This document shows positions 1 to 32,341 of a DNA stretch of 64,000 bases, piece after piece. The notes under the pieces are model-generated. The model saw only the letters and a list, made by a program, of their open reading frames with translations, did not search any database and had not been told where the DNA came from. The stretch's first letter is position 1. Each line of letters begins with the position of its first letter. This DNA is from Parasulfuritortus cantonensis (lineage in GTDB: Bacteria > Pseudomonadota > Gammaproteobacteria > Burkholderiales > Thiobacillaceae). The translations under genes and the position numbers were made by a program. The DNA lies in NCBI RefSeq assembly GCF_004337445.1, contig NZ_SJZB01000022.1, positions 1 through 64,000 of the forward strand, given 5' to 3'.

Positions 1-710
1 GCCAGGAACTCCACGAACCGTTGCGCCGTGTCTCGTCCCGTCGTCGCCCCGGCCGGGGCAAGCAGTGCGTGATACACGTTGACCAACACCGGGTCGCCCT
101 GAAACAGTAACCCCAGGTTGGACAGGCTTGCCGCTTCCATCAGCCAGGTGCTCGAGTCGCACAGGAAATAGGCGCCGATATCGTTTGCCAGTCTCAGGCT
201 GGCCGCCATGAAGTCGCCGCTTTCGACGTACCAAGGCCCGGTCGGCGCGATGCCGAGGCGGCGCCAAAGCTGAAGTTCCTTCCGGTGCGTCCCCGACTGG
301 TCGGCCCGCGATACGAACGGACGCGCGTCGGCATGGATGCGCCGAAAGGCCTCGGCGGCACTGTGTGCCTCGGAGACCCGGGCCGGATCGGCCACCGGGC
401 CCACGACGTAAAACGCGTTCGAGCCGATCAAGGTCTTCCCGACCGCCCAGCCTTCGGACATCGCGGTGTCGACCTCCTCCGGCGCATGCACCAGGACCAT
501 ATCGACCGCTCTCTCGCGCAGCAGTCGTAGCGATAGCCCCGTGCCGGCCTTGATCCAGTTCATCGTGGCATCCTCATGCCGGCAAAATGGCAAGGCCAGC
601 TGTTCGAGCAGACCGAGCTCGCCGGGGCTACCCGCCGCGACCGCAAAGGCACGCGCACCCGTGCCGTAGGAAATCGGGACGGGGCCGGTCACTTGCACGT
701 CCCCCGCCAT
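1..710 (-). CDS. Tungstate/molybdate-type PBP-like protein (partial)
   Basis: The gene runs off the left edge, so its C-terminus is missing; about 236 codons are visible. The protein resembles TupA/PBP-like domains (COG2998 type) that bind oxyanions such as tungstate. An AGTG segment lies near residues 55-58, a VLVHAP segment near 72-77 and the family-typical FVSRADQSGTH segment near 132-142. The start is taken at the ATG at 710, which leaves no signal peptide; the frame stays open further upstream, so a longer secreted form is possible. It overlaps the end of the four-helix membrane protein gene by 22 bp, and a TauE-type permease and a ModE-type regulator lie upstream, which supports a Mo/W role. 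The substrate is inferred. Confidence 0.7.
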   Translation of the reverse strand, partial: MAGDVQVTGPVPISYGTGARAFAVAAGSPGELGLLEQLALPFCRHEDATMNWIKAGTGLSLRLLRERAVDMVLVHAPEEVDTAMSEGWAVGKTLIGSNAFYVVGPVADPARVSEAHSAAEAFRRIHADARPFVSRADQSGTHRKELQLWRRLGIAPTGPWYVESGDFMAASLRLANDIGAYFLCDSSTWLMEAASLSNLGLLFQGDPVLVNVYHALLAPAGATTGRDTAQRFVEFL

Positions 711-1144
711 GGCCAGGCACGAACCCGTGCCGGGGCATGCGCGATCAGGGCCGACATGGCGACGACGAGGAAGAACAGTTCCGCGCGCCAGGCGACAAGC
801 ACGAAACTGGCCGCAAGCACGAGCAACTTCAACAGAATCCCCCATCCTTTCAACTGCAGGAGCCATACCCCGGACGAGGCGATGTACAGAAGCGAAAGGG
901 CAAGGCCGGAAAACACGGCAAGTAGCCAGTACGGCCGCCAGACGGCAAGATCGGCTGCATATAGAAATCCGGCCGAACACCCGGCGACAGCCATCAGATG
1001 GACGGATCTCAGCCCGATGTTCAGCCAGCGTTCGTATGGAATCCGCCGCGGCTCCGTGGGAAACGCGACGGCGCGCCAGGATGCCAGCAAGGTAACGACC
1101 AATGGGGACCGCTTCACGGCCTTCCCCATGTCGCTTGCCGACAC
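689..1144 (-). CDS. Small four-helix membrane protein, unknown function
   Basis: This protein of about 151 residues is strongly hydrophobic after a basic N-terminal stretch, with roughly four membrane segments (near residues 45-65, 72-90, 98-115 and 120-138). I do not recognise a family. The start is a GTG at 1144; an ATG five codons downstream (1129) is an alternative. It lies between the TauE/SafE permease gene and the PBP-like gene on the same strand and overlaps the latter, so the three look like one transcript. It could be the membrane partner of the PBP-like protein, but that is inference from position only. Confidence 0.6.
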   Translation of the reverse strand: MSASDMGKAVKRSPLVVTLLASWRAVAFPTEPRRIPYERWLNIGLRSVHLMAVAGCSAGFLYAADLAVWRPYWLLAVFSGLALSLLYIASSGVWLLQLKGWGILLKLLVLAASFVLVAWRAELFFLVVAMSALIAHAPARVRAWPWRGTCK

Positions 1145-1192
1145 GGCGGCCGGCCGCCGGTAGCCGAACTCCGTCGGTGTCCCACCTGCGCA

Positions 1193-2002
1193 TCAATGGG
1201 CATGCTGGAAGGTCTTGACCGCCGAGATCAGCAGGATCGCGCCGAGCAAGCCCAGCAACAGCCGGGTCGGTACCAGGCCGAGCATCAGCCCGCCGACGGC
1301 CGCGCCGAGGATCGAACCCACCGCCATCGACACGCCCAGCGGCCGTTCGTGCTTGAGTACGGCGAAGGCGTTGGCGCGGCTGTAGCGGACGAAGCCGACG
1401 ATCATGGTGGGCAAGCTCACCATGAGCGACAGGCTGCCCGCGAGCTTGATGTCCAGACCGTAGAGCAACACGATGGTCGGAATCAGCAGTTCGCCGCCGG
1501 CAACGCCGAGCAGTGCGGCCACCATGCCGATGCCAAAGCCGGCGATCAGGCCCGCCACGATCCGTGCCGGTCCGGCCTCGAACAACGGGGCGCTGCCTTC
1601 GTGCAAGCCGGCCCAGGCATCCCAGAGGATGAGCAGCGACAGCCCGACCAGGAGCGCCATGACGATGCGGTTGAGCCATTGCGGGGACAGCTTGATGGCA
1701 TGTCCCGCCGCCCACCAGGCGCCGACCAGGCTCCCCGCGAGCAGGTTCAACACCACGTCGAGGTGATTGGCCAGGACATCGGGCGTGATGGTGGCGCCGC
1801 GGAACAGCAGCGCGGCGGCAACCACCACCAGACTCATGGCCTTGTTCAGGATGACGGCTTCGAGGGTACCGAGCCGGAATAGGCCGACCAGCACCGGCAG
1901 CCGGAATTCCGCCCCGCCGAGGCCGATCAGGCCGCCCAGGGTGCCGATCAGCGAACCGGCGACGAAACCCTGGCCATTTCGGGTATGCGCGGAGGTGGAC
2001 AT
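1193..2002 (-). CDS. TauE/SafE family anion permease
   Basis: A 269-residue inner-membrane protein of the TauE/SafE (DUF81, COG0730) family, with two internally similar halves. Each half opens with a glycine-rich segment: GTLGGLIGLGGAEF near residues 20-33, and a GMVAALLGVAGGEL segment near 155-168. About eight hydrophobic segments are visible. Members move anions such as sulfite, sulfoacetate or other oxyanions. Here it sits between a ModE-type regulator with a candidate operator and a TupA-like binding protein, so molybdate or tungstate is a plausible substrate. A G-rich ribosome binding site lies just before the ATG at 2002. Confidence 0.85.
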   Translation of the reverse strand: MSTSAHTRNGQGFVAGSLIGTLGGLIGLGGAEFRLPVLVGLFRLGTLEAVILNKAMSLVVVAAALLFRGATITPDVLANHLDVVLNLLAGSLVGAWWAAGHAIKLSPQWLNRIVMALLVGLSLLILWDAWAGLHEGSAPLFEAGPARIVAGLIAGFGIGMVAALLGVAGGELLIPTIVLLYGLDIKLAGSLSLMVSLPTMIVGFVRYSRANAFAVLKHERPLGVSMAVGSILGAAVGGLMLGLVPTRLLLGLLGAILLISAVKTFQHAH

Positions 2003-2010
2003 AGCACCCC

Positions 2011-2082
2011 CTACTGGCCGGCGTACGCGATCACCGCAGGCCCCGGCAGGGGAAGAAGCATGCGTCGCAACCCGTATCTCAT
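2011..2082 (-). CDS. Possible 23-residue peptide ahead of the permease
   Basis: A short reading frame starts with ATG at 2082, preceded by an AGAAAGGAAA-type ribosome binding site, and ends with TAG eight bases before the permease ATG. The peptide begins MRYGLRRMLLPLPG and has a short hydrophobic stretch. It could be a small membrane subunit or a leader peptide coupled to the permease. Evidence is limited to the good ribosome binding site and its tight position; chance is quite possible. Confidence 0.3.
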   Translation of the reverse strand: MRYGLRRMLLPLPGPAVIAYAGQ

Positions 2083-2152
2083 CGATCGTTTCCTTTCTTA
2101 CATGACGACGGCGCAGATTCCCTCACACCGGCCCACCCGCTGGATTCACCGC

Positions 2153-2180
2153 ACCGTTAGGTTATAAATGACATAACGGT
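2153..2180. promoter_or_regulatory. Candidate ModE-type operator
   Basis: A perfect 7-bp inverted repeat, ACCGTTA and TAACGGT, flanks a 14-bp AT-rich spacer. The CGTTA...TAACG half sites match the general form of the ModE operator known from the E. coli modA promoter, though the spacing here is about 2 bp shorter. It lies in the gap between the modE-like gene and the permease gene, upstream of the permease operon. The assignment rests on half-site similarity and on the regulator next door. Confidence 0.5.
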
Positions 2181-2218
2181 AGGCATTAAGCAACACCCAT
2201 ACCAGGCCTTGATCCGGA

Positions 2219-2590
2219 TCAAGCGGGCCAGCCGGCCAAGGCGCTGAGCGCCGCCAACTCTTTGCCGGCGCTGGCATTTAGACTGACTTCCAGGGCGTCG
2301 TAGCACTCGATGAGCGTCTGGCCCAGCGCTGTCAGGGATGTGCCGCCGCCCCCTTTTCCCCCTGTCGCAGTCGCGACAACGGGACGGCCGAAACCTTGGT
2401 TGAGGGTGTCGATAAGCAGCCAGGCGCGCTTGTAGGGCATGCCCAGTGCACGCGCGGCCGCGGCGATGGACTGCGTTTCACCGATCCGGCGCAGCAAGTC
2501 GATCTTGCCGGGGCCGATCGATATGGCGTCGCCGATATAGATTCGGGGCCGAACCAGGACGACCGGCGATATGTCATTTGAAATTGCCAT
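2219..2590 (-). CDS. modE: ModE-type molybdate-responsive regulator, DNA-binding domain only
   Basis: A 123-residue protein matching the LysR-like winged-helix N-terminal domain of ModE. It has the helix-turn-helix stretch GKIDLLRRIGETQSIAAAAR near residues 28-47, an ALGMPYKRAW segment, and the family-typical glycine-rich loop before TSLTALGQ near 77-91. The C-terminal molybdate-binding (MOP/TOBE) domains of full ModE are absent, so it is the short form; how it senses the metal cannot be seen. It is transcribed toward the permease operon, with a candidate operator in between. No strong ribosome binding site is visible. Confidence 0.85.
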   Translation of the reverse strand: MAISNDISPVVLVRPRIYIGDAISIGPGKIDLLRRIGETQSIAAAARALGMPYKRAWLLIDTLNQGFGRPVVATATGGKGGGGTSLTALGQTLIECYDALEVSLNASAGKELAALSALAGWPA

Positions 2591-2910
2591 GAGCGGAGGC
2601 TATCGGAAAATTTTCGATGGCCCAAGCCCAGAAGCTTTCGGTGTGCGATTTGCGACTTCTACGGCACCCGCCGAGCCGGGACGACGTTTGCCGCCCGTCA
2701 ACGGCGAACCGGAAGAATGGTCGGCCTTGGCCCGGAAGGCGGCGCGGTTTCGACGGCAGCGCGCAGCCCGACGGATATTCGGCAGTATCGGGTTGCAACA
2801 CGGCTTAAGATTCTGAACGACCGTCCGGCTTCGTTTAGATCGTCTATCGTTCGCCCGACAAGATTGGATGCGGCGCATCCGAATCGCCCCATCTCCGGAG
2901 GAACCCGACT
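2591..2910. other. Intergenic region, no convincing gene
   Basis: This 320-bp stretch separates the divergent modE-like gene and the methyltransferase-like gene. Reading frames here have composition unlike neighbouring genes and no ribosome binding sites. It must hold the promoters of both flanking genes, but none stands out. A GGAGGA ribosome binding site for the downstream TTG start lies near 2897-2903. Confidence 0.6.
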
Positions 2911-3465
2911 TTGACCAACCGCAAACCGAAATTCACTCTCTCCGTCGTCATTCGCATAGTCGTCTGGGTCCTCATGCTGGTGGGTGGGGCTGCCGCCGGC
3001 ATCTGGCCGGACCTGGCATTCTTTCCGCACCTGTTCGCCAATCCGTGGTGGCACCTGGGCAGCCTGGTGTCCGGGGTGTTGCTGCTGCGTCTGGTCTTCC
3101 GCATGAGCCGCGTCACCGGGCGCACCCTGGCCCGCCATGGGCGGGAGGGGGACCTGCCGCGCATGGAGACGAATCGCCTGGTGACGAGCGGCCCCTACGG
3201 CTGCATGCGCCACCCCATGCACCTTGGGCTGCTGTTCTTTCCCTGGGCGGTGGCCCTGCTCGTCGGATCACCCAGCTTCGTGCTCTTTGTCGCCCCGCTG
3301 GAGATGGTCGTGATGGTGATCCTGGTGCTGACCCTGGAGGAGTGGGAGGTCGCGCGCAAATTCGGCGAGGATTACCAGACCTATCGCCGACGGGTACCGC
3401 CGTTCAACCTGCGTCCGGATTGCCTGCGCCGCCTGCTCGGCCTGGACGCCGCGGAAGGCCGCTGA
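2911..3465 (+). CDS. Isoprenylcysteine methyltransferase-like membrane protein
   Basis: A 184-residue membrane protein of the ICMT/phospholipid methyltransferase-like superfamily. Two or three hydrophobic segments are followed by the family hallmark RLVTSGPYGCMRHPMHLG near residues 88-105, which binds S-adenosylmethionine. Near the end comes an EEWEVARKFGEDYQTYRRRVP segment, split across residues 146-166, of the kind that closes the active site in this family. The acceptor substrate is unknown. Translation starts at TTG (2911), supported by a GGAGGA site about 8 bp upstream. Confidence 0.8.
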   Translation: MTNRKPKFTLSVVIRIVVWVLMLVGGAAAGIWPDLAFFPHLFANPWWHLGSLVSGVLLLRLVFRMSRVTGRTLARHGREGDLPRMETNRLVTSGPYGCMRHPMHLGLLFFPWAVALLVGSPSFVLFVAPLEMVVMVILVLTLEEWEVARKFGEDYQTYRRRVPPFNLRPDCLRRLLGLDAAEGR

Positions 3466-3504
3466 ACCCGGCACCCCATTGCCGGCGCGGCCGGCCGCCT
3501 GGCC

Positions 3505-4602
3505 TCACCCCTCCGCCCAGATCCTCGGCCAGTCGAGCTTGACCCCGGCCAGGGGCAGGCTCGTGTGTTCCCGGATGCCGCAGCCGAAGTGGCTGGTCTT
3601 GCGGGCGTGCGGCTGCTGCATCGGATGGCCGGACGGCCACATCAGGCTGACGACGTATTTGGGCGTCTCGGCCGACTTGAACCAGCGCGTGATGACCGCC
3701 GTCTCCCGGTTGGCCAGCTTGACCAGGGTTCCCGGCGGGTATTTGCCGAGCAGGCGGCGCAGGATGAGCATGACGGCGTCGTCCAGGTGGCCGCGTTCAC
3801 GTTCGAATGCCACGCGTACCGCGTGGCCCGGGACATACGGTAGGCGGGTGGGCCGCTGGCTCAGCATGGCCGCGAAGACATCGACCGCCCTCAGGATGCG
3901 CGCTTCGAGCCCCAGCGCCTCGGCGCCGACCTGGTATGGGTAGCCACTCTGGTCGAGGTTCTCGTGGTGCTGAAGCACGGCCCGCAGCCAGTCGACGTCG
4001 GTCACCCCGGCCTTGGCCAGCAGTTCCGTCGCGCGCCGCGGGTGGTGCGCCAGGACGGTCTTCTCCGCGCCGGTCAGCGGCCGGGATACCTCAGCAAGGT
4101 TGTCCTGCAGGGAGAACGAGGCCACGTTCATGGTCAGCGCCGCCCGAATCAGCGTCCTCCTGGCCTGGCGGCCCACGCCCATCTGCTCGGCGACCCGGTA
4201 GCTCAGTGCCGCGACGAACAAGGCATGGCGCCTGGAGTAGGACCCGACGTCGAGATGCAGCAGCATGCCGGTACACATGTCCGGGTGCGCGGCCATGAGG
4301 TCAAGCAGTTCGTCCGAGATGGCGACGTACTCGCGGGGATTCAGCCGCTTGCCCGGCGCCGAGACGTGGACGAACCGCTTTGCCAGGTCGCCGAGCAGCA
4401 GGGAAGGTGGCCGCTCGCGTTCCTCGGGCCCGGCGTCGTAGCAGTAGAGCCGCATTTCCAGCAGTCTCGCCAGGCGCGTCTGGTCCGCCAGTCGGCCGCC
4501 CTGGGCGAGCACCAGCACGCCGCTCTCGTTGAATAGGTCGAACGGGAGCGCCATCTCGAAGTCGAGATATCTGCAGTCGACCGGGATCAGTTTTCTTGCC
4601 AC
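3505..4602 (-). CDS. Degenerate HD-GYP domain protein
   Basis: A 365-residue soluble protein with a C-terminal region that aligns to HD-GYP c-di-GMP phosphodiesterases. The GYP end of the motif survives (HHENLDQSGYP near residues 213-223). The metal-binding HD pair does not: the region that should read as HDiGK is replaced by an AALTMNVASFSLQD segment, and RRHALFVAAL stands where the first conserved histidine helix lies. It is therefore probably not a phosphodiesterase and may act as a c-di-GMP or protein-binding module. No signal peptide or membrane segment is seen. It is divergent from ppc. Confidence 0.75.
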   Translation of the reverse strand: MARKLIPVDCRYLDFEMALPFDLFNESGVLVLAQGGRLADQTRLARLLEMRLYCYDAGPEERERPPSLLLGDLAKRFVHVSAPGKRLNPREYVAISDELLDLMAAHPDMCTGMLLHLDVGSYSRRHALFVAALSYRVAEQMGVGRQARRTLIRAALTMNVASFSLQDNLAEVSRPLTGAEKTVLAHHPRRATELLAKAGVTDVDWLRAVLQHHENLDQSGYPYQVGAEALGLEARILRAVDVFAAMLSQRPTRLPYVPGHAVRVAFERERGHLDDAVMLILRRLLGKYPPGTLVKLANRETAVITRWFKSAETPKYVVSLMWPSGHPMQQPHARKTSHFGCGIREHTSLPLAGVKLDWPRIWAEG

Positions 4603-4628
4603 GGGTGCACACCTGTCCGTTCACCGCA

Positions 4629-4650
4629 TGCCGCGGGTCGACCCGCGGCA
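4629..4650. repeat. 22-bp perfect palindrome
   Basis: The sequence TGCCGCGGGTC followed directly by its reverse complement forms a loopless dyad. It could be an operator for a dimeric regulator or a cruciform-prone site. It is 27 bp from the start codon of the HD-GYP-like gene, on its upstream side. Confidence 0.6.
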
Positions 4651-4680
4651 CACCCCAAATCCGGAAAAATTGGCCGCCGA

Positions 4681-4719
4681 GGCTGGGGCGGACGGAAAAT
4701 TTTTCCGTCCGCCCCAGCC
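4681..4719. repeat. 39-bp palindrome with 19-bp perfect arms
   Basis: The left arm GGCTGGGGCGGACGGAAAA is followed by one T and then its exact reverse complement. In RNA it would fold into a very stable hairpin. It sits between two divergent genes, so it cannot be an ordinary terminator for either. The A/T-rich centre and GC-rich flanks resemble the layout of a bidirectional terminator or of a mobile repeat-type palindrome. No second copy was noticed in this window. Confidence 0.75.
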
Positions 4720-4976
4720 AGGACACCGTTGCGAGCCGCACCGGCTCGTGGTTACAGCCTGTATGAGGCAATCGACATGCCAGATGGCCGCAGCCGCTAC
4801 GAAGTGGCCTGACCGGCGTCACGGACAAGCCGTGGCGGCAAGTCAGCGGTCGTCTCCGCACGCCCCGCGCATGCACCGCCCGGTCGCCGGCAACATTCCG
4901 GGGGGTGGCCGACCACGTCACGCTACAATCGAACCGTTCAAGCCGCATGGCCAGCTTGGCCGCGAGAGGAAAATCC

Positions 4977-7760
4977 ATGGTTACCGAAGACAAGGATCGA
5001 CGGGCGCGGGAGCGGCTACTCAGCCTGCTCCTGTCGCGCGTGTTGAAGAGCGAACTGCCGCGCCCCGTCTATACCGCCATCGGCACCCTGAACAAGGGTT
5101 TCACCGCCCTGCGCGAGCGGCCGAACCGCAAGCGCCACGCCGAACTCGACGCCCTGATCGGCAGCCTTTCGCCGGACGCGCTGTCGAGCATCATCCGCGC
5201 CTACAACCTCTATTTCAGCCTGCTCAACATCGCCGAGGAGACCGCCCTGCTGCGCCGGCGCCGGCTGCTCGTGAAGCAGGAAGGCCACATGTGGAAGGGC
5301 TCGTTCCACGACACCCTGATCGAACTGAAGGAACAGGGCATCCGGGCCGACGAACTGCAGACCCTGCTCGGCCGCCTGTGCTATCTGCCCGTGCTCACCG
5401 CGCACCCGTCCGAGGCGCGCCGGCGTACCGTCAAGGGCGCCTTGCGCAATATCTTCCTGTCCATGGAGGCGATGGACGACCCGCGCACCCGCGGCATGTA
5501 CCGGGACGAGGTGCAGGAGAAGCTCTCGCGCCAGATCCGCGCCCTGTGGAAGACCGACGAGGTACGCGCGTTCAAGCTCGACGTGCGCGACGAGATCGAT
5601 TCCGGCTTGTCCTATTTCCCGCAGTCGCTGTTCCGGGCGGCCACCCTCGTCTACCGGAACTTCAGCAAATCGGTGCGCGACGTCTACGGCCCCGAGACGG
5701 CCGCCGTGCTGGCCGTGCCGGCCTTCCTGCGCTTCGGCTCCTGGATCGGCGGCGACCGCGACGGCCATCCGGGCGTCACCGCCGAGGTCACCGCCCTGGC
5801 CTGGCGCATGCAGGCCCTGGCCGCCTGCGAGGAGTACCTGCGCCGGCTGGACGTGCTGTTCGCCGAGCTGAGCCTGTCCGACCGCCTGTGCCAACCGTCG
5901 GCCGCCTTCCTGGCCGGCCTTGAGGAGGACGTGCAACTGGCCGACAGCCTGTTCGGCGGCCAGCCCAACCCGCACCCCCAGGAACCCTACCGGCGCAAGA
6001 TCGAGATCATGCAGTACCGCATGCGGCGCAACCGGGAGCTGATCCGGCGCGCCATCGCCGGCAGCGTGAGCAGCCTGGACGAACCCGGCTACGCCACCGC
6101 CGACGCCTTCAAGCGCGACCTTTACGTGATCCGCGACTCGCTCGACAGCCATGGCGACGGCGCCCTGGCCCAGGGCGAGCTGCAGGACCTGATCATGCTG
6201 GTCGAGACCTTCGGCTTCCACCTCATGCAGCTGGACGTGCGCCAGGAGTCGACCCGGCACAGCGAGACGGTGGCCGAGATCCTCGGCCAGGCGCTCGGCA
6301 CCGACTACGCGGCCCTGGACGAGGACGCCCGCATCGAGCTGCTGGCCGACGCCATCGCCAACCCGGCGGCACTGAATTACGACGCCGGCGCCCTGAGCGA
6401 AAGCGCGCAGGAAACGCTGCGGGTGTTCCGGCTCATCGCCCACATGCGCCAGGAGATCGGGCCCGAATGTTTCGGCCGCTACGTCATCTCGATGACACAT
6501 ACCGCGTCGCACGTCATGGAGGTGATGATGCTGGCGGCCCAGGCCGGCCTGGCCGGGCGCCTGGCCGGCGGCTGGTACTGCCACATCGGCATCTCGCCCC
6601 TGTTCGAGACCATCGACGACCTCAAGCACGCCGAGGCGGTGCTGGATCGGCTCTACAGCCAACCGACCTACCGCAGCCTGCTCCTGGCCTACGGCGAGGG
6701 CCAGGAGGTGATGCTCGGCTACTCCGACTCCTGCAAGGACGGCGGCATCCTGGCGTCGTCCTGGAACCTGTACGAGGCCCAGAAGCGCATCATGGCCCTG
6801 TCCGACCGGCACGGCGTGCCCTGCCGGCTGTTCCATGGCCGCGGCGGCACCCTGGGCCGGGGCGGCGGCCCCACCCACGAGGCCATCCTGGCCCAGCCGC
6901 CCGGCACCGTGCGCGGCGAGTTGAAGCTGACCGAGCAGGGCGAGGTGTTGTTCTACAAGTACAACAACATGGAGACGGCGGTATACGAGTTGACCCTGGG
7001 CATCACGGGCACGCTCAAGGCCAGTTGCAACCTGGTCCGGCCGGCCAGTGCCGAACGCAAGGACTACCTGGCCATCATGGACGACATGGCGGCCGAGGGC
7101 GAAGCCGTCTACCGGGACCTGACCTGCGCCACGCCCGGCTTCCTGGACTATTTCTACGAGGTCACGCCGATCCAGGAAATCGGCCTGCTCAACATCGGCT
7201 CACGGCCCTCGCACCGGAAGAAGGGCGATCGTTCGCTGGCGTCCGTGCGGGCGATCGGCTGGGTATTCGCCTGGGGCCAGTCGCGCCACGCCCTGCCGAC
7301 CTGGTACGGCGTCGGCGGCGCCATCGAGCGCTGGCGCAAGAACGATCCCGCACGCCTGGCCAAGCTGCAGACCATGTATCGGGAATGGCCGTTCTTCCGC
7401 ACCCTGCTCTCGAACGCCCAGATGGCCCTGTACAAGGCGGACATGGGGATCGCCCGGGAATATGCCGGGCTGTGCCTGGACAAGGCGGCCGGCGAGCGCA
7501 TCTTCGACAAGATCCGGATGCGCCATGAACGGGCCGTGATGCAGATACTCAACGTCGCCGACATCCAGTCGCTGCTCGAAGAGAGCCCGGACCTGGCCGT
7601 CTCGCTGGCCCACCGCAACCCCTATCTCGACCCCCTGAACCACATCCAGGTGATCATGCTGCACAAGCTGCGCGAGCACGAGGGGCCCGACAACCCGTGG
7701 CTGGAGCCGCTGCTGCGCTCCATCAACGCCATCGCGGCCGGGATGCGGAATACCGGCTGA
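4977..7760 (+). CDS. ppc: Phosphoenolpyruvate carboxylase
   Basis: Converts phosphoenolpyruvate and bicarbonate to oxaloacetate, the anaplerotic step feeding the TCA cycle, in the cytoplasm. The 927-residue protein has all hallmark motifs: LTAHPSEARRR with the catalytic His near residue 143, GGDRDGHP near 258, the SDSCKDGG segment near 582, FHGRGGTLGRGGGP near 618, IGSRPSHRK, and the C-terminal NTG tail. Length fits bacterial PEPC (about 880-940). The ATG at 4977 is chosen because GAGAGGA lies 6 bp upstream; an in-frame upstream ATG at 4905 lacks this support. A bidirectional terminator follows. Confidence 0.97.
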   Translation: MVTEDKDRRARERLLSLLLSRVLKSELPRPVYTAIGTLNKGFTALRERPNRKRHAELDALIGSLSPDALSSIIRAYNLYFSLLNIAEETALLRRRRLLVKQEGHMWKGSFHDTLIELKEQGIRADELQTLLGRLCYLPVLTAHPSEARRRTVKGALRNIFLSMEAMDDPRTRGMYRDEVQEKLSRQIRALWKTDEVRAFKLDVRDEIDSGLSYFPQSLFRAATLVYRNFSKSVRDVYGPETAAVLAVPAFLRFGSWIGGDRDGHPGVTAEVTALAWRMQALAACEEYLRRLDVLFAELSLSDRLCQPSAAFLAGLEEDVQLADSLFGGQPNPHPQEPYRRKIEIMQYRMRRNRELIRRAIAGSVSSLDEPGYATADAFKRDLYVIRDSLDSHGDGALAQGELQDLIMLVETFGFHLMQLDVRQESTRHSETVAEILGQALGTDYAALDEDARIELLADAIANPAALNYDAGALSESAQETLRVFRLIAHMRQEIGPECFGRYVISMTHTASHVMEVMMLAAQAGLAGRLAGGWYCHIGISPLFETIDDLKHAEAVLDRLYSQPTYRSLLLAYGEGQEVMLGYSDSCKDGGILASSWNLYEAQKRIMALSDRHGVPCRLFHGRGGTLGRGGGPTHEAILAQPPGTVRGELKLTEQGEVLFYKYNNMETAVYELTLGITGTLKASCNLVRPASAERKDYLAIMDDMAAEGEAVYRDLTCATPGFLDYFYEVTPIQEIGLLNIGSRPSHRKKGDRSLASVRAIGWVFAWGQSRHALPTWYGVGGAIERWRKNDPARLAKLQTMYREWPFFRTLLSNAQMALYKADMGIAREYAGLCLDKAAGERIFDKIRMRHERAVMQILNVADIQSLLEESPDLAVSLAHRNPYLDPLNHIQVIMLHKLREHEGPDNPWLEPLLRSINAIAAGMRNTG

Positions 7761-7780
7761 CCGGCCAACACGGGAAAGGA

Positions 7781-7812
7781 AAAAGCCCCGTCTTGCCGGA
7801 CGGGGCTTTTTC
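7781..7812. terminator. Bidirectional rho-independent terminator
   Basis: AAAAGCCCCGTC and GACGGGGCTTTT form a 12-bp stem around the loop TTGCCG, with A and T tracts on both sides. It lies between the convergent ppc and rhodanese genes and can serve both. Confidence 0.9.
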
Positions 7813-7862
7813 GCCATTTTCCATCACGCCGGGCTCGCCGCCCGGCTCCAGGCGCTGCGGCG

Positions 7863-8642
7863 CTATTGCACCGGCGTCAGGTTCAACGCCTTGTACAGGC
7901 CCGGGTCGCGCTCATACGCCAGCGGCGGCTGCACCTGGGTGGTCCACGGCAAGGCCGCGAAGTTGCGCCAGCCGTCCTTGTCCGGATTCGCGTCCTTGGT
8001 CTGGCTGTACACGTCGGCGGCGTCCGCGTTGAGCTGGCCGTCATTGTTCAGGTCGAGCCGGCAGCCGGTCGGGCAATCGGGGGCGAGTTCCAAGGCATCG
8101 GAGCCCGTCTTGAAGGCGTATTTCGGCTGTCCGACGAAACCTTCCCAGATGTTGCGGACATTGGTGAACGGTTGCAGGCCGCGGTCCTTGGTCGCCGGGT
8201 CGGACTCCGGGTTGGCCAGGATGTTGCCGGCCAGGACACTGCGGTGGCCGGTCCGGCACAAGGTCATGATGGGCGTGTCCATGCGGCCGCCGACGATGCG
8301 GTACACCTCCCAGTAAAGCTTCAGGGGATCCTGAGGTGCATCCCCGCCCATGCCGCTCACGGTCGGGAAGGGCACGTTGTACGCATCTTCGGGATGGCCG
8401 GAGGCATATTCGCGCAGGGAGCGGACATCGATCAGGACGGGCTTGGCTTCGCCGGGAGCATTGGTGAAATCCTTGCTGTGTTCCATCGCAAGGTAGGCAC
8501 CCGAAACACTGATCTCCGCCTTGTAATAGCGCGGCAGGCTGTAGTAACGGTTGCCATCCGGCGGGCTGTCCGCCGCCGCCGTCGTCGTGAGTACGGTGGC
8601 AATAGCCGCCGCCAACAGCGTGATGCCGTTTCTTAGATACAT
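7863..8642 (-). CDS. Secreted rhodanese-domain protein with calcium-binding-like loops
   Basis: A 259-residue protein with a cleavable-looking signal peptide (cut after about AAA-D near residue 25). The rhodanese fold spans about residues 60-190, with LIDVRSLREY near the start and an active-site loop LCRTGHRS near 128-135 carrying the catalytic cysteine. Family members move sulfane sulfur. The C-terminal part has two EF-hand/thrombospondin-type acidic loops, DLNNDGQLNAD and a following DANPDKDG. The ATG at 8642 is chosen for its GAGGAGA ribosome binding site. It lies just downstream of the sox operon on the same strand but after a terminator, so it is probably separately expressed. A role in periplasmic sulfur handling is inferred. 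Confidence 0.8.
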   Translation of the reverse strand: MYLRNGITLLAAAIATVLTTTAAADSPPDGNRYYSLPRYYKAEISVSGAYLAMEHSKDFTNAPGEAKPVLIDVRSLREYASGHPEDAYNVPFPTVSGMGGDAPQDPLKLYWEVYRIVGGRMDTPIMTLCRTGHRSVLAGNILANPESDPATKDRGLQPFTNVRNIWEGFVGQPKYAFKTGSDALELAPDCPTGCRLDLNNDGQLNADAADVYSQTKDANPDKDGWRNFAALPWTTQVQPPLAYERDPGLYKALNLTPVQ

Positions 8643-8872
8643 TCCAAGTCTCCTCGAGCAATGGGAATTGGTGTCGATCACCAAGGATTTGCGCCGCCTG
8701 TTCGTTTCTTATGGATGCGGCTAAATGAAAATTACTCCTGAAACCCCAATTCATCAATATTTTTTATTAAGCATTTGTTTTTATTTATAAGCATATTCTG
8801 ATGGGCTTGTTGTGGAAGTCTGCCGGCAGGTGCCGACACCGATGCCGGCGGCTGCCCGCTGGAACGGCCTCA

Positions 8873-8903
8873 GGAAAAAGAAACGGGGCCTTGCGGCCCC
8901 GTT
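8873..8903 (-). terminator. Terminator of the sox operon
   Basis: In the minus-strand transcript, AACGGGGCC and GGCCCCGTT form a stem around a four-base loop, followed by a TTTCTTTTTCC tract. It lies 25 bp beyond the soxB stop codon. Confidence 0.85.
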
Positions 8904-8927
8904 CCGGTTCGGCGGTTTTCCCGAGCC

Positions 8928-10655
8928 TTACAGAACGATGCCCGGGTTGTTCTTCGGGATACCGACCACCTTGGGCTGGTTGAGCTTGAGGCCCTTGATG
9001 ACCTTCTTGTCGCGCAGGTACTCGGCCACCACTTCCCAGACCGGCGCGCCCTGCGCGCCCTCGGCCACCGGTGCCCAGCCGGCTACCTTGTAGGTCTTGT
9101 CCGGATCGACCGGCTTGCCGTTCAGGGTCATGTCGCTGATGCGGTGGCCGATGGTCTTGGTCGGATCGACCGTATAGTGGATGCCGCCGACGCGCACCAT
9201 GTCGCCGCCCTGCTGGTAATACGGATCCGGGTTGAACAGGTTGTCGCAGACGTCCTCCATGATGTTCTTGATCATGGTCCCCTTCATCGGGGTCAGGGTG
9301 GACTGCGGGTAGGTGATGGCGGTCTGGTCCATCAGCTTTTCCATGGTGATGGATTCGCCCGGCAGGATCGTGGTGCCCCAGCGGAAGCCCGGCGAGAAGC
9401 CGGCGTCGGCACCCTTGACCGCCATGATGGCATCCAGGATGAGTTGGTCCCAGGTACCGTTGAAGTTGCCGCGGCGATAGAGGAAATCGTCCGACACCGC
9501 GAGGACCTCGTTCAGCTTGCTCTCGTAGGGCGCGCGGATCTTCTGGATCAAGGCATCCATCTTGGCGTCGGCGGCCAGGAAGTTGGCGAACACGGGCAGC
9601 AGGCGATACTTCCAGCCCTTGACCTTGCCGTCCTTGACCTCGAAGTCCATGACGCCGAGGAACTTGCCGTTCGAGCCGGCGTTGGTGACCAGGCAGGTGC
9701 CGCCGTCGGGAGTCTTCACCGGGACCGGCTGGTAGACGCCGTCATGGGTGTGGCCGCCGAAGATGGCATCGACGCCGTTGACGCGGCTGGCCATCTTGAG
9801 GTCGACGTCCATGCCGTTGTGGGACAGGACGACGACCACCTTGGCACCCTTGGCGCGGGCCTCGTCGACCCACTTCTGCATGCTGTCGTCGCGGATGCCG
9901 TAGGACCAGTCCGGCACCATGTAGCGCGGGTTGGCCACCGGGGTGTAGGGGAAGGCCTGGCCGACCACGGCGACGGTGACGCCGTTGATCTCGCGCAGGG
10001 TGTAGGGCTTGAACACCTGGTCGCCGAAGTCGTTGGTGACGATGTTCTGGGCGACGAAGTCGAGGCCGGCCTTCTTGAAATCGTTGTTGACGATCTCCTG
10101 GACGCGGTCGGCACCGTAGGTGGCTTCCCAGTGCGGAGTCATCACGTCGACGCCGAGGGCGATGCAGGCGTCGACCATGTCCTGGGCGTTGGTCCACAGC
10201 GCGGTGGCGGAACCCTGCCAGGTGTCGCCGCCGTCGAGCAGCAGGCAGCCGGGGCGCGAGGCGCGCACCTGGTCGACCAGCGTCTTCAGGTGGGCGAAAC
10301 CGCCGACCTTGCCGTAGGTCTTCGCGGCGGTCTGGAAGTCCAGGTAGGTGAAGGCATGGGCGTCGGCCGTGCCGGGCTTGAGGCCGTAGTGCTTGAGGAA
10401 GTGGGTCCCCACCAGGTGCGGCACCTTGCCGGCCATGGAGCCGACGCCGAGGTTGACGTTGGGCTCGCGGAACCAGATCGGCAGCAGCTGGGCATGGGTG
10501 TCGGTGATGTGCATGAACGACACGTTGCCGGCCGGCGGCGCATCGTAGTAGCCGGCCGGCAGGGTGCCGGCCAGCACGGCGCGGCTGTCCAGGACCAAAC
10601 CGGAAGCCGCCGCGGCGGCCAGGACCTGCAGGAATTCACGACGACTCATGGACAT
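8928..10655 (-). CDS. soxB: SoxB thiosulfohydrolase
   Basis: Periplasmic dimanganese hydrolase that releases sulfate from the sulfur-loaded SoxY cysteine during thiosulfate oxidation. The 575-residue protein starts with a twin-arginine signal (SRREFLQ). Metallophosphatase motifs are present: HITDTHAQ (residues 49-56), DGGDTWQG (141-148), LSHNGMD (277-283) and GGHTHDG (300-306). A 5'-nucleotidase C-terminal domain follows. A GAGAGGAAG site precedes the ATG at 10655. It is the last gene of soxXYZAB, separated from soxA by a 221-bp gap with hairpins. Confidence 0.97.
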   Translation of the reverse strand: MSMSRREFLQVLAAAAASGLVLDSRAVLAGTLPAGYYDAPPAGNVSFMHITDTHAQLLPIWFREPNVNLGVGSMAGKVPHLVGTHFLKHYGLKPGTADAHAFTYLDFQTAAKTYGKVGGFAHLKTLVDQVRASRPGCLLLDGGDTWQGSATALWTNAQDMVDACIALGVDVMTPHWEATYGADRVQEIVNNDFKKAGLDFVAQNIVTNDFGDQVFKPYTLREINGVTVAVVGQAFPYTPVANPRYMVPDWSYGIRDDSMQKWVDEARAKGAKVVVVLSHNGMDVDLKMASRVNGVDAIFGGHTHDGVYQPVPVKTPDGGTCLVTNAGSNGKFLGVMDFEVKDGKVKGWKYRLLPVFANFLAADAKMDALIQKIRAPYESKLNEVLAVSDDFLYRRGNFNGTWDQLILDAIMAVKGADAGFSPGFRWGTTILPGESITMEKLMDQTAITYPQSTLTPMKGTMIKNIMEDVCDNLFNPDPYYQQGGDMVRVGGIHYTVDPTKTIGHRISDMTLNGKPVDPDKTYKVAGWAPVAEGAQGAPVWEVVAEYLRDKKVIKGLKLNQPKVVGIPKNNPGIVL

Positions 10656-10750
10656 GGGTAGCTTCCTCTCGATTGTCTCCGGCTGCAGGCATCCGGCAGC
10701 CGCTACGCTGGATCATCCCGGCTGCGCCGCATTCGGGTGCGATACGCGGA

Positions 10751-10829
10751 CCGGGCCGGAGGCCCGGAGGTACCGACGCTGCGGTGCAACCGATCGATAT
10801 TCTCAAAAGAACCGGGCCCGCAGGCCCGG
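10751..10829 (-). promoter_or_regulatory. Paired hairpins between soxA and soxB
   Basis: Two hairpins share the same arms, CCGGGCC and GGCCCGG, at 10751-10767 and 10812-10829. In the minus-strand transcript the first one met (10812-10829) is followed by TTCTTTT, resembling a weak terminator or RNA-processing site. It could lower soxB expression relative to soxXYZA. Confidence 0.45.
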
Positions 10830-10876
10830 CCTCACACGACCCCGCCGTCCATCCGGACGGACAGGGCCCAGGGGCA

Positions 10877-11716
10877 TTACTTGCGGAACACCGAGGACTT
10901 CAGTTCCATGCCGTTGGACAGGTAGGAATGGAAGTACTCCAGGTTGTTGAAACGGGTGCTGCCTTCCTTGTCCGGCACCTGACGAACCTGCTTGAAGCAG
11001 CCCGAGTAGCGCTTTTGCAGGGTGGTCGGCACGTCGCCGCCGTCCTTGCCGCGGAACACCGGGAAGTGGGTCGCCTGGCCGAGCACCGGCGACAGGATTT
11101 CCGAACGCAGGTTGTTGCCGGCGGCGTCGATGTGGCAGGACGCGCAGGAGAAGTTGAGCTGGCCGGCGCGGGCGTAGTAGGTTTTCTTGCCGTCCTCGAA
11201 GGCCTTGAGCGCGGCCGGGCTGTCGACCTTGATGTTCATCTTCATGCCGTCGGACAGGGTGCGGGCATACGAGGTCAGCACGCCCATGGTCTTCATGTCG
11301 TCGTACTTGTACGGCTCTTCGCCGTTGGCGACGCGGCAATCGTTGATGGCATCCTCGAAGGTCACGACCTTGCCCTTGGCTTCGTCGAACATCGGGTAGT
11401 TGCCGGCGATCATCTTGCCGCCGTTGGGCAGGCAGTCGGCGTAGGTCTTGCCGCTCTTGAACGGCGTGTCCCACATCTTCTTGCCCTTGTCGAGCACCTC
11501 GACGAAGGGCGGGAATTCCATGATGCTGTCGTACTGGGACTTGGAGTCCGGACTGAACGCCAGGGCACCGTAGATGTAGTCATCAATCTTGATGTCCGAA
11601 TACTTGTTCTTGAAGTAGTTGATCAGCTTGGTGCGGTCGTCCTCGGGACCCGCAACAGCCGACACCGAACCCAGGACGATGCCAGCCCCGGCCAAAATCA
11701 TAATCAGTTTCTTCAT
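10877..11716 (-). CDS. soxA: SoxA, c-type cytochrome subunit of SoxAX
   Basis: With SoxX it forms the SoxAX complex that links thiosulfate to the SoxY cysteine in the periplasm. The 279-residue protein has a signal peptide (about residues 1-22) and one haem motif, CASCH at 191-195. The usual N-terminal haem motif of dihaem SoxA is missing. Cys95 and Cys127 stand in that region and probably form a disulfide, so this is the monohaem type. Cys240 in RYSGC is the likely distal haem ligand, normally modified to a persulfide. The start is the ATG at 11716, behind a GGAGGAC site. Confidence 0.95.
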   Translation of the reverse strand: MKKLIMILAGAGIVLGSVSAVAGPEDDRTKLINYFKNKYSDIKIDDYIYGALAFSPDSKSQYDSIMEFPPFVEVLDKGKKMWDTPFKSGKTYADCLPNGGKMIAGNYPMFDEAKGKVVTFEDAINDCRVANGEEPYKYDDMKTMGVLTSYARTLSDGMKMNIKVDSPAALKAFEDGKKTYYARAGQLNFSCASCHIDAAGNNLRSEILSPVLGQATHFPVFRGKDGGDVPTTLQKRYSGCFKQVRQVPDKEGSTRFNNLEYFHSYLSNGMELKSSVFRK

Positions 11717-11776
11717 GCCGTCCTCCAGATGGACGCGGCCGCCGGCTGGCGCCGGCCGGCCCGCGTCGATTTCCAA

Positions 11777-12088
11777 TCAGCCGATGTCGGCTTCAGCGCT
11801 ATCCTTCTCGCCCTTGTTGTCCAGGGTCTCGATCACGACCTTGTCGCCCGCCTTGGCACCCTTCACCTTGAACGCCAGGTACGGGTTCTTGGAAATGCCG
11901 CCGCCCCACTGCGCGTCCAGCACCACCTTGCCACCCACCGTCGCCGTCACGTTCGTGATGTGGTGCGCCGGCACGATCTCGCCCGTCTTCGCATCCTTGC
12001 GCAGACCCGTCTCCATCACGTGGTTCATCAGCGCCTTGATCTCAGCAACATCTCCGGCCATCGAGGCACGAATCTTCATCCCAGCCAT
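11777..12088 (-). CDS. soxZ: SoxZ, partner of the SoxY sulfur carrier
   Basis: A 103-residue immunoglobulin-like protein that pairs with SoxY to carry sulfur intermediates. The conserved stretch HHITNVTATVGGK, the segment GGGISKNPYLAF and the absence of a signal peptide fit SoxZ, which is exported with SoxY through the Tat pathway. It follows soxY by 29 bp and precedes soxA by 60 bp. Confidence 0.96.
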   Translation of the reverse strand: MAGMKIRASMAGDVAEIKALMNHVMETGLRKDAKTGEIVPAHHITNVTATVGGKVVLDAQWGGGISKNPYLAFKVKGAKAGDKVVIETLDNKGEKDSAEADIG

Positions 12089-12117
12089 CTTGTCTTCCTT
12101 TCTCTATCCGTTGCCGA

Positions 12118-12588
12118 TCAGCCGCCGCAGCCACCAATGGTGACCTTGACTTCCTTCGCCGCCTTGTAAACCTTGCCGCCAGCCTTCACGACCGCAACAA
12201 CGTTCGACGTCGCTCCCATCTTGATCCGCGTCGACACGTAGCCTTCCGCTCCGTTCTGCAGACCAAAATCGGCAATCAGCGGAAAACCGTTCTTCTCCGC
12301 CAGAATGATGATGTGTTCCGTGCCCGGAATCGCCGAAATCACTTCCACAGGCACCACCGCGCCGTTCTCGGCAATGTCCGGCGCCTTCACCGTGATCTGG
12401 CCGCTGTCCGCGCCGCCACTCGCTCCCTCGCTCGACAGCGCACCCGCCATATCCTTGGCCTCGAACGCCGCCTTGTTCCACCCGGCCGCCCATACCGTCC
12501 CCGGCTTCAGCAGCCCGGCCGCCGCCGCCACCGTCACCACACTGGCGGCACCCGCGCCCTTCAGGATACTTCTACGTTGTTCGTTCAT
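12118..12588 (-). CDS. soxY: SoxY, sulfur carrier protein
   Basis: The periplasmic carrier to which sulfur substrates are bound during Sox oxidation. The 156-residue protein begins with a Tat-like signal (QRRSILKGAGA) and ends with the swinging-arm tail IGGCGG, whose Cys154 carries the intermediates. The ATG at 12588 is chosen because GGAGTGGAG lies upstream; a longer in-frame form is less likely. It lies 26 bp after soxX. Confidence 0.97.
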   Translation of the reverse strand: MNEQRRSILKGAGAASVVTVAAAAGLLKPGTVWAAGWNKAAFEAKDMAGALSSEGASGGADSGQITVKAPDIAENGAVVPVEVISAIPGTEHIIILAEKNGFPLIADFGLQNGAEGYVSTRIKMGATSNVVAVVKAGGKVYKAAKEVKVTIGGCGG

Positions 12589-12614
12589 CTCCACTCCTTC
12601 CACGCTTTTGGATG

Positions 12615-12977
12615 TCACAGGCCGTAGACGAAATCGACGACCTTGTCGATTTGCTCCTCGGTCAGCGCCTTGTGCTTGCCGAACGGGGGCATGATGGTAT
12701 TGGGATTGGTCGCCGTGGCGTCCCAGATCTTGGCGCGCATCACCTTCTTGTCCGGGAAGCGAGCACTCATGGCGATCAGGGGCGGGCCGCTGTTGCCGGG
12801 CTGTTCGGCATCGGGCATCGTGGGCATCGCATGACAGGCCAGGCAGTTGCCCTTGCTGCTGTTGTAGGCGATTTCCTTACCGGTCTCTTCCTTGGCCGGG
12901 TCCGCAGCCAGGGCGACGTTGATACCCAGCGCGGCGAGCAAAGCCAAGCCGGTACCGACGGAAACAAGATTCCGCAT
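12615..12977 (-). CDS. soxX: SoxX, c-type cytochrome subunit of SoxAX
   Basis: A 120-residue secreted monohaem cytochrome c. A signal peptide of about 25 residues is followed by the haem motif CLACH at 45-49. A GNSGPPL segment follows, and an IMPPFG segment holds the likely methionine ligand (Met97). It pairs with SoxA. The ATG at 12977 has a strong GGAAGGAGAG ribosome binding site. It is the first gene of the operon; the upstream gap carries two candidate operator sites. Confidence 0.93.
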   Translation of the reverse strand: MRNLVSVGTGLALLAALGINVALAADPAKEETGKEIAYNSSKGNCLACHAMPTMPDAEQPGNSGPPLIAMSARFPDKKVMRAKIWDATATNPNTIMPPFGKHKALTEEQIDKVVDFVYGL

Positions 12978-24519: not shown

Positions 24520-25284
24520 ATGACAAGGGTGTCCTTGAACCAACCCGAAGTGAGCCACGGAACGGGTGGGGTGCTGTCGATCATCCTTTCCCATTTCTGG
24601 TTCAAATGCCTGGGAACCATGGCCTTCACCTCGGTGTTCTTCATGGCCTACCTCTTCCTGCTCAAGCATCCATTCTTCCCGGTGACCGTCATCCCCGCGA
24701 CCGGGCTCGACGGGCTGATCGGCATCGCGCCCCTGGCCCTGGTCCTCTATCTGTCGCTCTGGCTATACCTGTCGCTGCCGGTCATGCTGACCGGCACGCG
24801 CCCCGGGGTCGTCGACTACGGCCTATGGGTCGGCGCGATGTGCCTGACCGCGTTGACCATCTTCCTGTTCTGGCCGACCGCCGTGCCGCCGGCCCTCGGC
24901 GACTGGGCCCAGCAGCCCGGCATGGCGTTCCTCAAGGACATCGACGCCGCCGGCAATGCCTGTCCGTCGCTCCATGTCGCCACGGCGGTATTCGCCTGCT
25001 TCTGGATCAACAGGCAACTCGGCCCCTACGGCGGCCGGCGCGGACTGCGCGCCTTGAACATCGCCTGGTGCGTGGGCATCGTCTATTCGACCATGGCGAC
25101 CAAACAACACATGGCGCTCGACGTCGTCGGCGGCATTGCCTTGGCGTCGGCGTTCGCCCTGGCCCGTCACCATGCCACGCGGATGCGCGCGGAGCCCGCC
25201 GTGTCCGGCGTCGTCGAGCCATCTCCGCATCCCGGAGGGCGAGTGAAATTCGGCCCCGACCGGGAGTGCATCCTCAGGCCATGA
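24520..25284 (+). CDS. PAP2-family membrane phosphatase of the aryl polyene cluster
   Basis: A 254-residue inner-membrane protein with about five hydrophobic segments. PAP2 motifs are visible: NACPSLH at 146-152, and KQHMALD at 195-201 with the catalytic histidine and aspartate. Members remove phosphate from isoprenyl or phosphatidyl lipids, or transfer it. It is the first gene of a tightly coupled operon (next start overlaps by ATGA). PAP2 is not a core aryl polyene enzyme, so it may recycle or prepare a lipid carrier for the pigment; that is inference. Confidence 0.82.
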   Translation: MTRVSLNQPEVSHGTGGVLSIILSHFWFKCLGTMAFTSVFFMAYLFLLKHPFFPVTVIPATGLDGLIGIAPLALVLYLSLWLYLSLPVMLTGTRPGVVDYGLWVGAMCLTALTIFLFWPTAVPPALGDWAQQPGMAFLKDIDAAGNACPSLHVATAVFACFWINRQLGPYGGRRGLRALNIAWCVGIVYSTMATKQHMALDVVGGIALASAFALARHHATRMRAEPAVSGVVEPSPHPGGRVKFGPDRECILRP

Positions 25285-25925
25285 TCTCCGTCCGCAATCT
25301 CATCCTGGCGTCCATCGGCCTGGCCTATCTCGGCGTCGGCTACGTCGCCACGACGGTCCCGCACCCCCCCCTGGTCACCGTGCTGATCGGCTTCGTGCCG
25401 CTCGGGGCCGCCGCGCTGGCCGCCGCGTGGAAGTCCAGGGCACGGGTCCCGCTCCTGCTGCTCACCCTGGCCTGCATGCTGCTGATGGCGGTCTTCGTCA
25501 ATCAACTTCGCGACCATGTCGCCTGGGTGTATTTCGTCCAGCACGCCGGCGCCATGACGCTGCTCGGACTCACCTTCGGCGCCACCCTGGGCGGCCGGCA
25601 CGGCGAGGCACTGTGTTCCCGGATTGCCACGGTCGTCATCCGGTCGCCGCTGGACGACCGTTACCTTCGCTATACCTGGCAGGTGACCCTGGCCTGGACG
25701 ATCTATTTCGCCACCAGCGCCGTGTTGTCGGTGTTGCTGTTCTTCTTCGGCCCGATCACCGCATGGTCCGTGCTCGCCAACGTGTTGACCCCCATTACGC
25801 TCGGCCTCATGTTCGTCGCGGAGTACTTCATACGGCGGCGGGTGCTCCCCGACGGCCCGGAGGTGAGCATCGCCGCCACCATCACGGCCTACCGTGCGTT
25901 CACCAATCGCACCGATACGCCGTAG
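25281..25925 (+). CDS. COG4648-like membrane protein of aryl polyene clusters
   Basis: A 214-residue protein with about six hydrophobic segments, including one near the N-terminus and one near residues 145-160. It resembles the COG4648 membrane proteins that occur in aryl polyene gene clusters (ApeG-type in the E. coli nomenclature). The biochemical role is unknown; a scaffold for the biosynthetic enzymes is one idea. The ATG overlaps the previous stop codon (ATGA). Confidence 0.7.
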   Translation: MISVRNLILASIGLAYLGVGYVATTVPHPPLVTVLIGFVPLGAAALAAAWKSRARVPLLLLTLACMLLMAVFVNQLRDHVAWVYFVQHAGAMTLLGLTFGATLGGRHGEALCSRIATVVIRSPLDDRYLRYTWQVTLAWTIYFATSAVLSVLLFFFGPITAWSVLANVLTPITLGLMFVAEYFIRRRVLPDGPEVSIAATITAYRAFTNRTDTP

Positions 25926-25930
25926 CCCCG

Positions 25931-27268
25931 ATGGACACCCTCCCGCTCCTGCCCGATGTCGGCGGCGACTCGATCGTGGCCTACCATGGCCCGGCCCCGG
26001 TCAGCCAACGGCAATTCCTGGAGGACGTCTTCGCCCTCGCCGAACGGCTGCCCGACGGCGACCACCTGCTCAACCTGTGCAAGGATCGCTATTGGTTTTC
26101 CGCCGGCCTGTTCGCCGCCATGGTCCGCGGCAAGCGCAGCGTCCTGCCCAATTCCGTCGCGCCGGAAGTCCTGGCCGGCTTCCGGGAGCCGTTCAGCGGC
26201 CTCGCCTGCCTCGGGGACGACCCCGGCGGCCCTGATCGGTACCACTATGTTCGGGCGCCCGACTGCCGTACCGGAACACGGCCCGCGGTCCCCGCCACCA
26301 TGCCGCGGGTCCCGGCCGAGGAGCCGGTCCTGTACGTCCACACGTCCGGCTCCACGGGGAAGCCGCAACGACACCCGAAGACCCTCGGCCAAATGCGCCA
26401 GGGCGCCCTGGCCGGGGCGAAACGCCTGTGGGCCTTCGCCCAGGGGCCGTGCACGGTCCTCGGGACGGTCCCGTTCCAGCACATGTTCGGCCTGGAATCG
26501 ACCGTCTTCCTGCCGCTGCTCGGTGGCGGCAAGTTGAGCTCGCGCCTGCCTTTCTTTCCCGCCGACGTGGTGTCCGCCCTGGCCGAGTTGCCGGAACCCC
26601 GCCTGCTGGTCATCACGCCCTTCCATCTGCGGACCCTGCTGGACACGGCCATCGACTACCCGCCCGTGGCGGCCGTCCTGTCCGCCACGGCGCCGATGCC
26701 GGCGGGCCTCGCCGCGGCGGCGGAGGAACGCCTGGGGGCGCCCGTGGTCGAGATATACGGCTCGACCGAGACCGGCCAGATCGCCACGCGCCGGCCGGCC
26801 CGGCAACCCGAATGGGACCTGTATGACGACATCGACCTGACCCTGGACGGCGACTCCGCGACCGTCGGCGGCGGCCACCTGAGGACGCGGGAAACACTCC
26901 ACGACGTCATCGAGCCCTGCGGCGCTGCCCGATTCCGACTGCTCGGGCGCCGTTCGGACATGGTCAACGTCGCCGGGAAGCGCAGTTCGCTGGCCTACCT
27001 GAACCACGTCATCGCCACCATCCCGGGCGTGCGTGACGCGGTGTTCTGCGTGCCGGACGGGCACCCGGACCGGGACATTGCCCGCCTGGCCGCCTTCGTG
27101 GTGGCGCCCGGCTTGGCCCGGCGCGACCTCCAGTCCGCCTTGCAGCGGAAACTCGACCCGGTGTTTCTACCCCGGCCGGTCGTCTTCCTCGATGTCCTGC
27201 CCCGCGACGGCAACGGCAAGCTGCCGGCAGCGGCCCTGCAAGAACTGATCGCCGCCCACCTGCCATGA
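25931..27268 (+). CDS. AMP-dependent ligase loading the aryl polyene starter
   Basis: A 445-residue adenylate-forming enzyme. The phosphate-binding loop TSGSTGKPQ lies near residues 138-146, YGSTETGQIA near 276 and the C-terminal catalytic lysine in GNGKLP near 431. In aryl polyene clusters the corresponding enzyme (ApeH) activates the aryl acid, such as a 4-hydroxybenzoate, and loads it onto an acyl carrier protein. The start at 25931 follows the previous gene by 5 bp, and the stop overlaps the next start. The frame is open far upstream of 25931 but that part lies inside the previous gene. Confidence 0.82.
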   Translation: MDTLPLLPDVGGDSIVAYHGPAPVSQRQFLEDVFALAERLPDGDHLLNLCKDRYWFSAGLFAAMVRGKRSVLPNSVAPEVLAGFREPFSGLACLGDDPGGPDRYHYVRAPDCRTGTRPAVPATMPRVPAEEPVLYVHTSGSTGKPQRHPKTLGQMRQGALAGAKRLWAFAQGPCTVLGTVPFQHMFGLESTVFLPLLGGGKLSSRLPFFPADVVSALAELPEPRLLVITPFHLRTLLDTAIDYPPVAAVLSATAPMPAGLAAAAEERLGAPVVEIYGSTETGQIATRRPARQPEWDLYDDIDLTLDGDSATVGGGHLRTRETLHDVIEPCGAARFRLLGRRSDMVNVAGKRSSLAYLNHVIATIPGVRDAVFCVPDGHPDRDIARLAAFVVAPGLARRDLQSALQRKLDPVFLPRPVVFLDVLPRDGNGKLPAAALQELIAAHLP

Positions 27269-32304: not shown

Positions 32305-32341
32305 CACCCCAGCCCGGGCAACCGACAAGAGACGGATCGCG

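Follow-up and report, generated by a model that had tools for sequence, protein, structure and literature searches.

Bacterial uptake of molybdate and tungstate has been described almost entirely through ABC systems. The left end of the window (the whole 64-kb stretch of DNA analyzed here, which is the start of contig C12 in a genome of 3.22 Mb, 54 contigs, and 88% completeness) raises the question of whether a TauE/SafE permease can take part as well. The original prediction described a short ModE, a 7-bp inverted repeat, and genes for a TauE-type permease, a four-helix membrane protein, and a TupA-like binding protein as one locus with no ABC permease or ATPase visible, possibly a different way to move or sense these oxyanions. 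Profile matches and coordinates within positions 1-2590 located all four genes and the repeat:

2219-2590, minus strand: short ModE-like regulator, 123 aa, winged helix-turn-helix (HTH) only (TIGR00637, 85.9 bits)
2153-2180, no strand: ModE-type operator, 7-bp inverted repeat ACCGTTA-N14-TAACGGT, arms at 2153-2159 and 2174-2180
2155-2178: 24-bp operator core CGTTA-N14-TAACG, between the modE and TauE genes
1193-2002, minus strand: TauE/SafE (TSUP) permease (PF01925, 81.8 bits against a cut-off of 32.6)
689-1144, minus strand: four-helix membrane protein without a named family
1-710, minus strand: TupA-like oxyanion-binding protein (PF12849, 70.6 bits), its C terminus cut by the contig end

The ModE-like and TauE genes are separated by a 216-bp gap that contains the inverted repeat, and the four-helix and TupA-like genes overlap by about 20 bp. 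The spacing of the TauE, four-helix, and TupA-like genes is close enough for a single transcription unit, which we infer them to form. No tup or mod ABC permease or ATPase genes were recognized within positions 1-8000, so the predicted lack of visible ABC genes holds there; this is true but weak, because window base 1 is where the contig starts, so that the locus has the contig end on its left. With the same contig end on the left, the locus differs from TupABC systems (no tupB or tupC seen) and from E. coli-type ModE-ModABC operons (no modBC seen). It resembles the latter in its probable ModE-type HTH and its operator, and its TauE clade is often found inside or beside such operons.

We examined the regulator and its site. 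The TIGR00637 score of the ModE-like protein (E = 1.5e-24) is just below the curated cut-off of 98.5, and its 123 residues gave no match to a TOBE/Mop molybdate-binding domain; E. coli ModE has two molybdate-binding domains, whereas this protein has neither. Its orthologues, at 64-83% identity, adjoin modA/modB/modC or TauE. The E. coli ModE consensus is ATCGNTATATA-N6-TATATANCGAT (PMC545781, PMC2700814), and the window operator has the identical 24-bp CG-to-CG spacing, although its arms are CGTTATGTC/GACATAACG rather than the TATATA of E. coli. Judged by its letters, then, the site in front of the window TauE is a 24-bp ModE-type operator. The core occurred once in the window and in 0 of 100 shuffles. 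Genome-wide, exact cores numbered three: at the window locus, before the full-length modE of a nif-linked mod operon (contig C25), and on contig C2. By our own estimate, chance alone would produce the 10-base core roughly once in a genome of this size (3.2 Mb) and G+C, so the significance of the operator rests on its position and conservation. A box matching at least 9 of 10 bases within 400 bp accompanied 20 of 53 short-ModE places, compared to 1.2% of control windows; exact boxes were seen at 8 of the 53 and in no control window. Beside short ModE genes, the box sits on the 3' side of modE, ahead of the next gene. In Rugamonas (L125), the operator preceding modA-TauE-modB-modC is identical to that of the window at 22 of 24 bases. 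Absence of the repeat from relatives, which the original prediction had named as evidence against itself, was looked for, and we found the repeat conserved instead and enriched beside short ModE genes. The third exact site (C2:140810-140833, L229) lies ∼190 bp ahead of the gene for an ABC binding protein of the peptide/nickel type and may be either chance or a further ModE target.

To place the permease, we built a profile from nine TauE relatives, searched it against one genome per species, and inspected the best 80 loci. Among 95 clade loci examined, 30 had modA/B/C, and in 41 modABC or ModE lay no more than about 5.5 kb away. A maximum-likelihood tree put the window TauE in a 37-row clade (support 99/94), 29 rows of which have modABC or ModE next to TauE, its commonest place being between modA and modB; the sister group is mostly alphaproteobacterial, with more arsenic-island members and more members without a recognized neighbor. 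In 13 of the best 80 loci (L122-L126, L129-L131, L133, L138, and L145-L147), modA and modB flank a co-directional TauE; in others of the 80, TauE lies downstream of modABC. We read modE-modA-modB-modC-methyltransferase-TauE in a genome of the host's family (G033), modE-modA-modB-modC-TauE in G113, and modABC-TauE in G196 and G206. Elsewhere TauE accompanied a lone short ModE (L135, L136, L137, L151-L153, L168, and L193), and the bare modE-TauE pairs of L135, L136, and plasmid R64 carried the operator box. The pairing of modE with TauE, alone or with modABC, thus recurs across relatives, as the original prediction had suggested checking. Because a ModE-type operator precedes it and its clade is linked to modE and modABC, the window TauE is, as far as sequence can tell, very probably a gene of the molybdenum/tungsten (Mo/W) regulon.

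Two neighborhoods from this survey deserve description. At L128:1684-10783, genes read by eye as full-length ModE, TonB receptor-like, FecB/FecCD-like, methyltransferase, and TauE form an operon-like run with TauE as its last gene, resembling an operon for TonB-dependent molybdenum uptake; G033 (L100) likewise has a methyltransferase of this kind ahead of TauE. In Bosea (L151:5029-10789), a gene for a large subunit resembling that of arsenite oxidase (AioA, by eye) is followed by moeA, cytochrome c, short ModE, and TauE, which links the ModE-TauE pair with a molybdoenzyme.

What, then, does the permease carry? Characterized TauE/SafE proteins move sulfur anions, by export of sulfite and sulfoacetate and, in a recent case, by sulfate uptake (PMC11535334). 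The window TauE shares their PF01925 domain, whereas its clade is set apart by GGAEFRLP/GGELLIP motifs and by linkage to Mo genes. In a structure model (pLDDT 84.9), the motifs GLGGAEFRLP and GVAGGELLIP fall at the starts of two short helices. A fold search with this model returned nothing significant, with a weak resemblance to BacA/UppP, and a sequence search found no solved structure of a TauE relative. The known sulfur substrates, together with soxB- and soxY-like genes (by eye) 6-10 kb away, speak against a Mo/W permease, and in keeping with the family name the protein could be an ordinary sulfite/sulfate permease for the organism's sulfur oxidation beside an incidental ModE-like gene. 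However, the operator stands between modE and tauE and keeps 22 of its 24 bases before a modA-TauE-modBC operon, and the modE/modABC linkage is repeated in Beta-, Gamma-, and Alphaproteobacteria, a Desulfobulbaceae, and a Bacteroidota genome; we consider a sulfur-oxidation permease highly improbable.

That TauE itself would carry molybdate or tungstate without ATP, under ModE control, we regard as the likeliest reading, at about even odds. Since clade members share operons with importers, we favor import over export, and the TauE family probably has an unrecognized role in molybdenum uptake, to judge from these arrangements. Against a second importer, a high-affinity ModABC in the same operon makes uptake by TauE look redundant.

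Plasmid and arsenic-island members bear on the alternatives. The clade matched 223 plasmid records, of which 175 are conjugative. Citrobacter pR56A and a Methylomonas plasmid carry annotated modA-TauE-modB-modC, whereas Salmonella R64 and Ideonella have TauE plus a short HTH gene inside an arsenic region; in R64 (L206, NC_005014.1:25092-26335), the TauE/ModE-like pair of the arsenic-resistance region has an exact ModE-type operator in front of TauE. Thirteen clade loci were labeled as arsenic islands without Mo genes. Because the clade is common in such islands, the substrate may be another oxyanion, and transport of a companion anion is the main rival to a Mo/W permease. TauE could belong to the Mo regulon and export an anion that enters along with molybdate or competes with it (sulfate, sulfite, thiosulfate, or arsenate), thereby protecting selectivity; co-expression with modABC suits such an anti-leak pump, many clade members sit in arsenic islands, and the characterized relatives move sulfur anions (PMC11535334). 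Yet modA-TauE without modBC and bare modE-TauE pairs have no adjacent importer whose leak would need correcting, and we judge such export rather unlikely. TauE might instead be a molybdate/tungstate efflux permease induced at oxyanion excess, with ModE acting as an activator or released at high Mo/W. Its presence in resistance islands and on conjugative plasmids would fit; however, TauE lies inside modA-modB-modC operons, where it would be futile to make an exporter together with the importer, and E. coli modABC is expressed under Mo starvation. Efflux of this kind seems improbable.

Does a TauE-type permease replace ABC uptake? The same genome carries full-length ModE, modA, and modB next to nifHDK-like genes on C25, which ends at modC, and its ModA and ModB score above curated cut-offs. 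Since this canonical modE-modA-modB is present, the window locus is an addition to the standard Mo system of the genome. The idea of a different way to move or sense Mo/W gained from the operator and from the recurrence of the TauE clade in Mo/W loci, and also from stand-alone modE-TauE pairs in several genera and from two MAGs, one of Comamonadaceae (L132) and one of Bacteroidota (L195), in which modA immediately precedes TauE and the flanking sequence retrieved contains neither modB nor modC. It did not hold as a general replacement of ABC uptake, because TauE is usually inside or behind modABC and the genome has its own modE-modA-modB. We also rejected TauE as the only Mo transporter of a genome, since modB scored above the cut-off in 28 of the 31 genomes tested. 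Candidatus Nitrotoga HW29, considered as a modB-less case, was dropped because its modA lies at a contig end.

The TupA-like protein departs from a normal periplasmic binder, which the original prediction had taken it to be. Its nearest PDB matches are the tungstate-binding proteins 3lr1 and 5my5, and it scored 89.1 bits against the TupA equivalog NF041772, below the cut-off of 400, with its sequence shortened by the contig end. When its N terminus (start MAGDVQVTGPVPISYGTG at 710) was compared with those of TupA relatives, no signal peptide was found: the relatives, read by eye, have a signal sequence and ...ATTTST..., whereas the window protein and those of G044 and G458 have ...GSPGELGLL and no signal sequence. 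The pocket of D. alaskensis TupA consists of His59, Thr9-11, Ser12, Arg118, Thr124, and Asp170 (PMC5517513). The window protein shares most of these, with His, Ser, Arg, Thr, and Asp retained and Thr9-11 replaced by AAG (TTTS to AAGS), and its oxyanion pocket seems, by alignment, largely retained. The missing signal peptide makes a cytoplasmic location probable, with the protein serving as a sensor or partner and not as a binder in the periplasm, and three of the four known subfamily members seem to remain in the cytoplasm. The fourth, from G477 (52%), has a signal peptide. At L218:8702-11508 this GSPGELG-type protein is in tandem with a normal TupA, both with signal peptides, and the tandem is divergent from a gene whose product, by eye, fuses a ModE-like HTH to a binding domain (HTH-PBP), possibly a tungstate sensor. 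Because of this tandem with TupA near a ModE-like regulator, the subfamily is, by gene context, tungstate/molybdate-linked.

A protein without an export signal cannot supply the periplasmic face, which counts against TauE as a molybdate/tungstate permease at this locus. The same fact led us to drop a TRAP-like assembly of TauE, four-helix, and TupA-like proteins as the main reading, along with the lack of a solved fold for the four-helix protein. TRAP/tripartite transporters likewise combine a large permease, a small four-helix membrane protein, and a binding protein as a unit, and modA-TauE pairs at other loci add to the likeness. They differ in that the window binding protein is not exported, TauE is of another permease family (PF01925), and the four-helix protein, in a model of pLDDT 77.7, had no significant match to any solved fold, including as a DctQ-like subunit.

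The four-helix protein had no Pfam or NCBIfam match and no match among plasmids. Relatives were present in 12 of 180 genomes of a class-wide sample, its own included (∼6%), and conserve R46, H49, K106, H136, and R142 in or near helices. The best relative (G223) is on a contig with a gene read as mobA, and a truncated relative in G194 (L223) lies directly behind modC in an operon of the ModABC type whose operator is close to consensus. We infer a role for the protein within the unit.

We propose that the locus forms a molybdate/tungstate unit under ModE control. The ModE-like protein, which has no TOBE domain, would bind the operator that separates its gene from tauE and would set tauE, four-helix, and tupA-like expression up or down by Mo/W status. 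TauE would act as a secondary permease for molybdate/tungstate, supplementing the genome's ModABC. The signal-less TupA-like protein would bind oxyanion in the cytoplasm and, by analogy, might be the sensor, or a handling partner, of a ModE that has no ligand domain. HTH-PBP regulators, which fuse a binding domain of this kind to a DNA-binding one, adjoin TauE in 8 loci (PF12728 + PF12727 in the one scanned), a precedent for a cytoplasmic binding domain as sensor. In Desulfovibrio, TunR is a tungstate-responsive regulator. A ModE consisting of the DNA-binding domain only, and so without a ligand domain like the window protein, is also known there, its sensing mechanism described as unclear (PMC545781). 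Its operator CGGTCACG-N14-CGTGACCG is by modABC (PMC545781), whereas the window operator is E. coli-like and ahead of TauE, and the window unit differs further by including the signal-less TupA-like gene. The widest form of our proposal, that the clade is a non-ABC Mo/W permease family, in places with its own binding protein (modA-TauE), and that here a TOBE-less ModE senses through a TupA-like protein lacking an export signal, we hold to be unlikely as a whole.

If the proposal is true, a widespread TSUP clade, annotated throughout as "sulfite exporter," is co-regulated with ABC uptake, and gene calls would change in many genomes and in plasmids like R64; it would also bear on metal sensing by ModE proteins without a ligand domain, left open in the literature (PMC545781). 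In the open-access papers searched, we found no account of TauE in a Mo regulon or of this TauE clade; subscription papers were outside the scope of the search, and this is not proof of novelty.

Other gene runs in the window were also noted. Rhodanese, SoxB-like, and SoxY-like genes at 7863-12618 form a sulfur-oxidation cluster near the locus (Sox genes by eye only). At 24520-38439, a run of ketosynthase, reductase, acyltransferase, and MMPL-like exporter genes resembles an aryl-polyene-type pigment cluster, by eye only. Rnf-like and pyruvate:flavodoxin oxidoreductase-like genes at 55311-64000, read by eye, are consistent with a nitrogen-fixing genome (nifHDK on C25).
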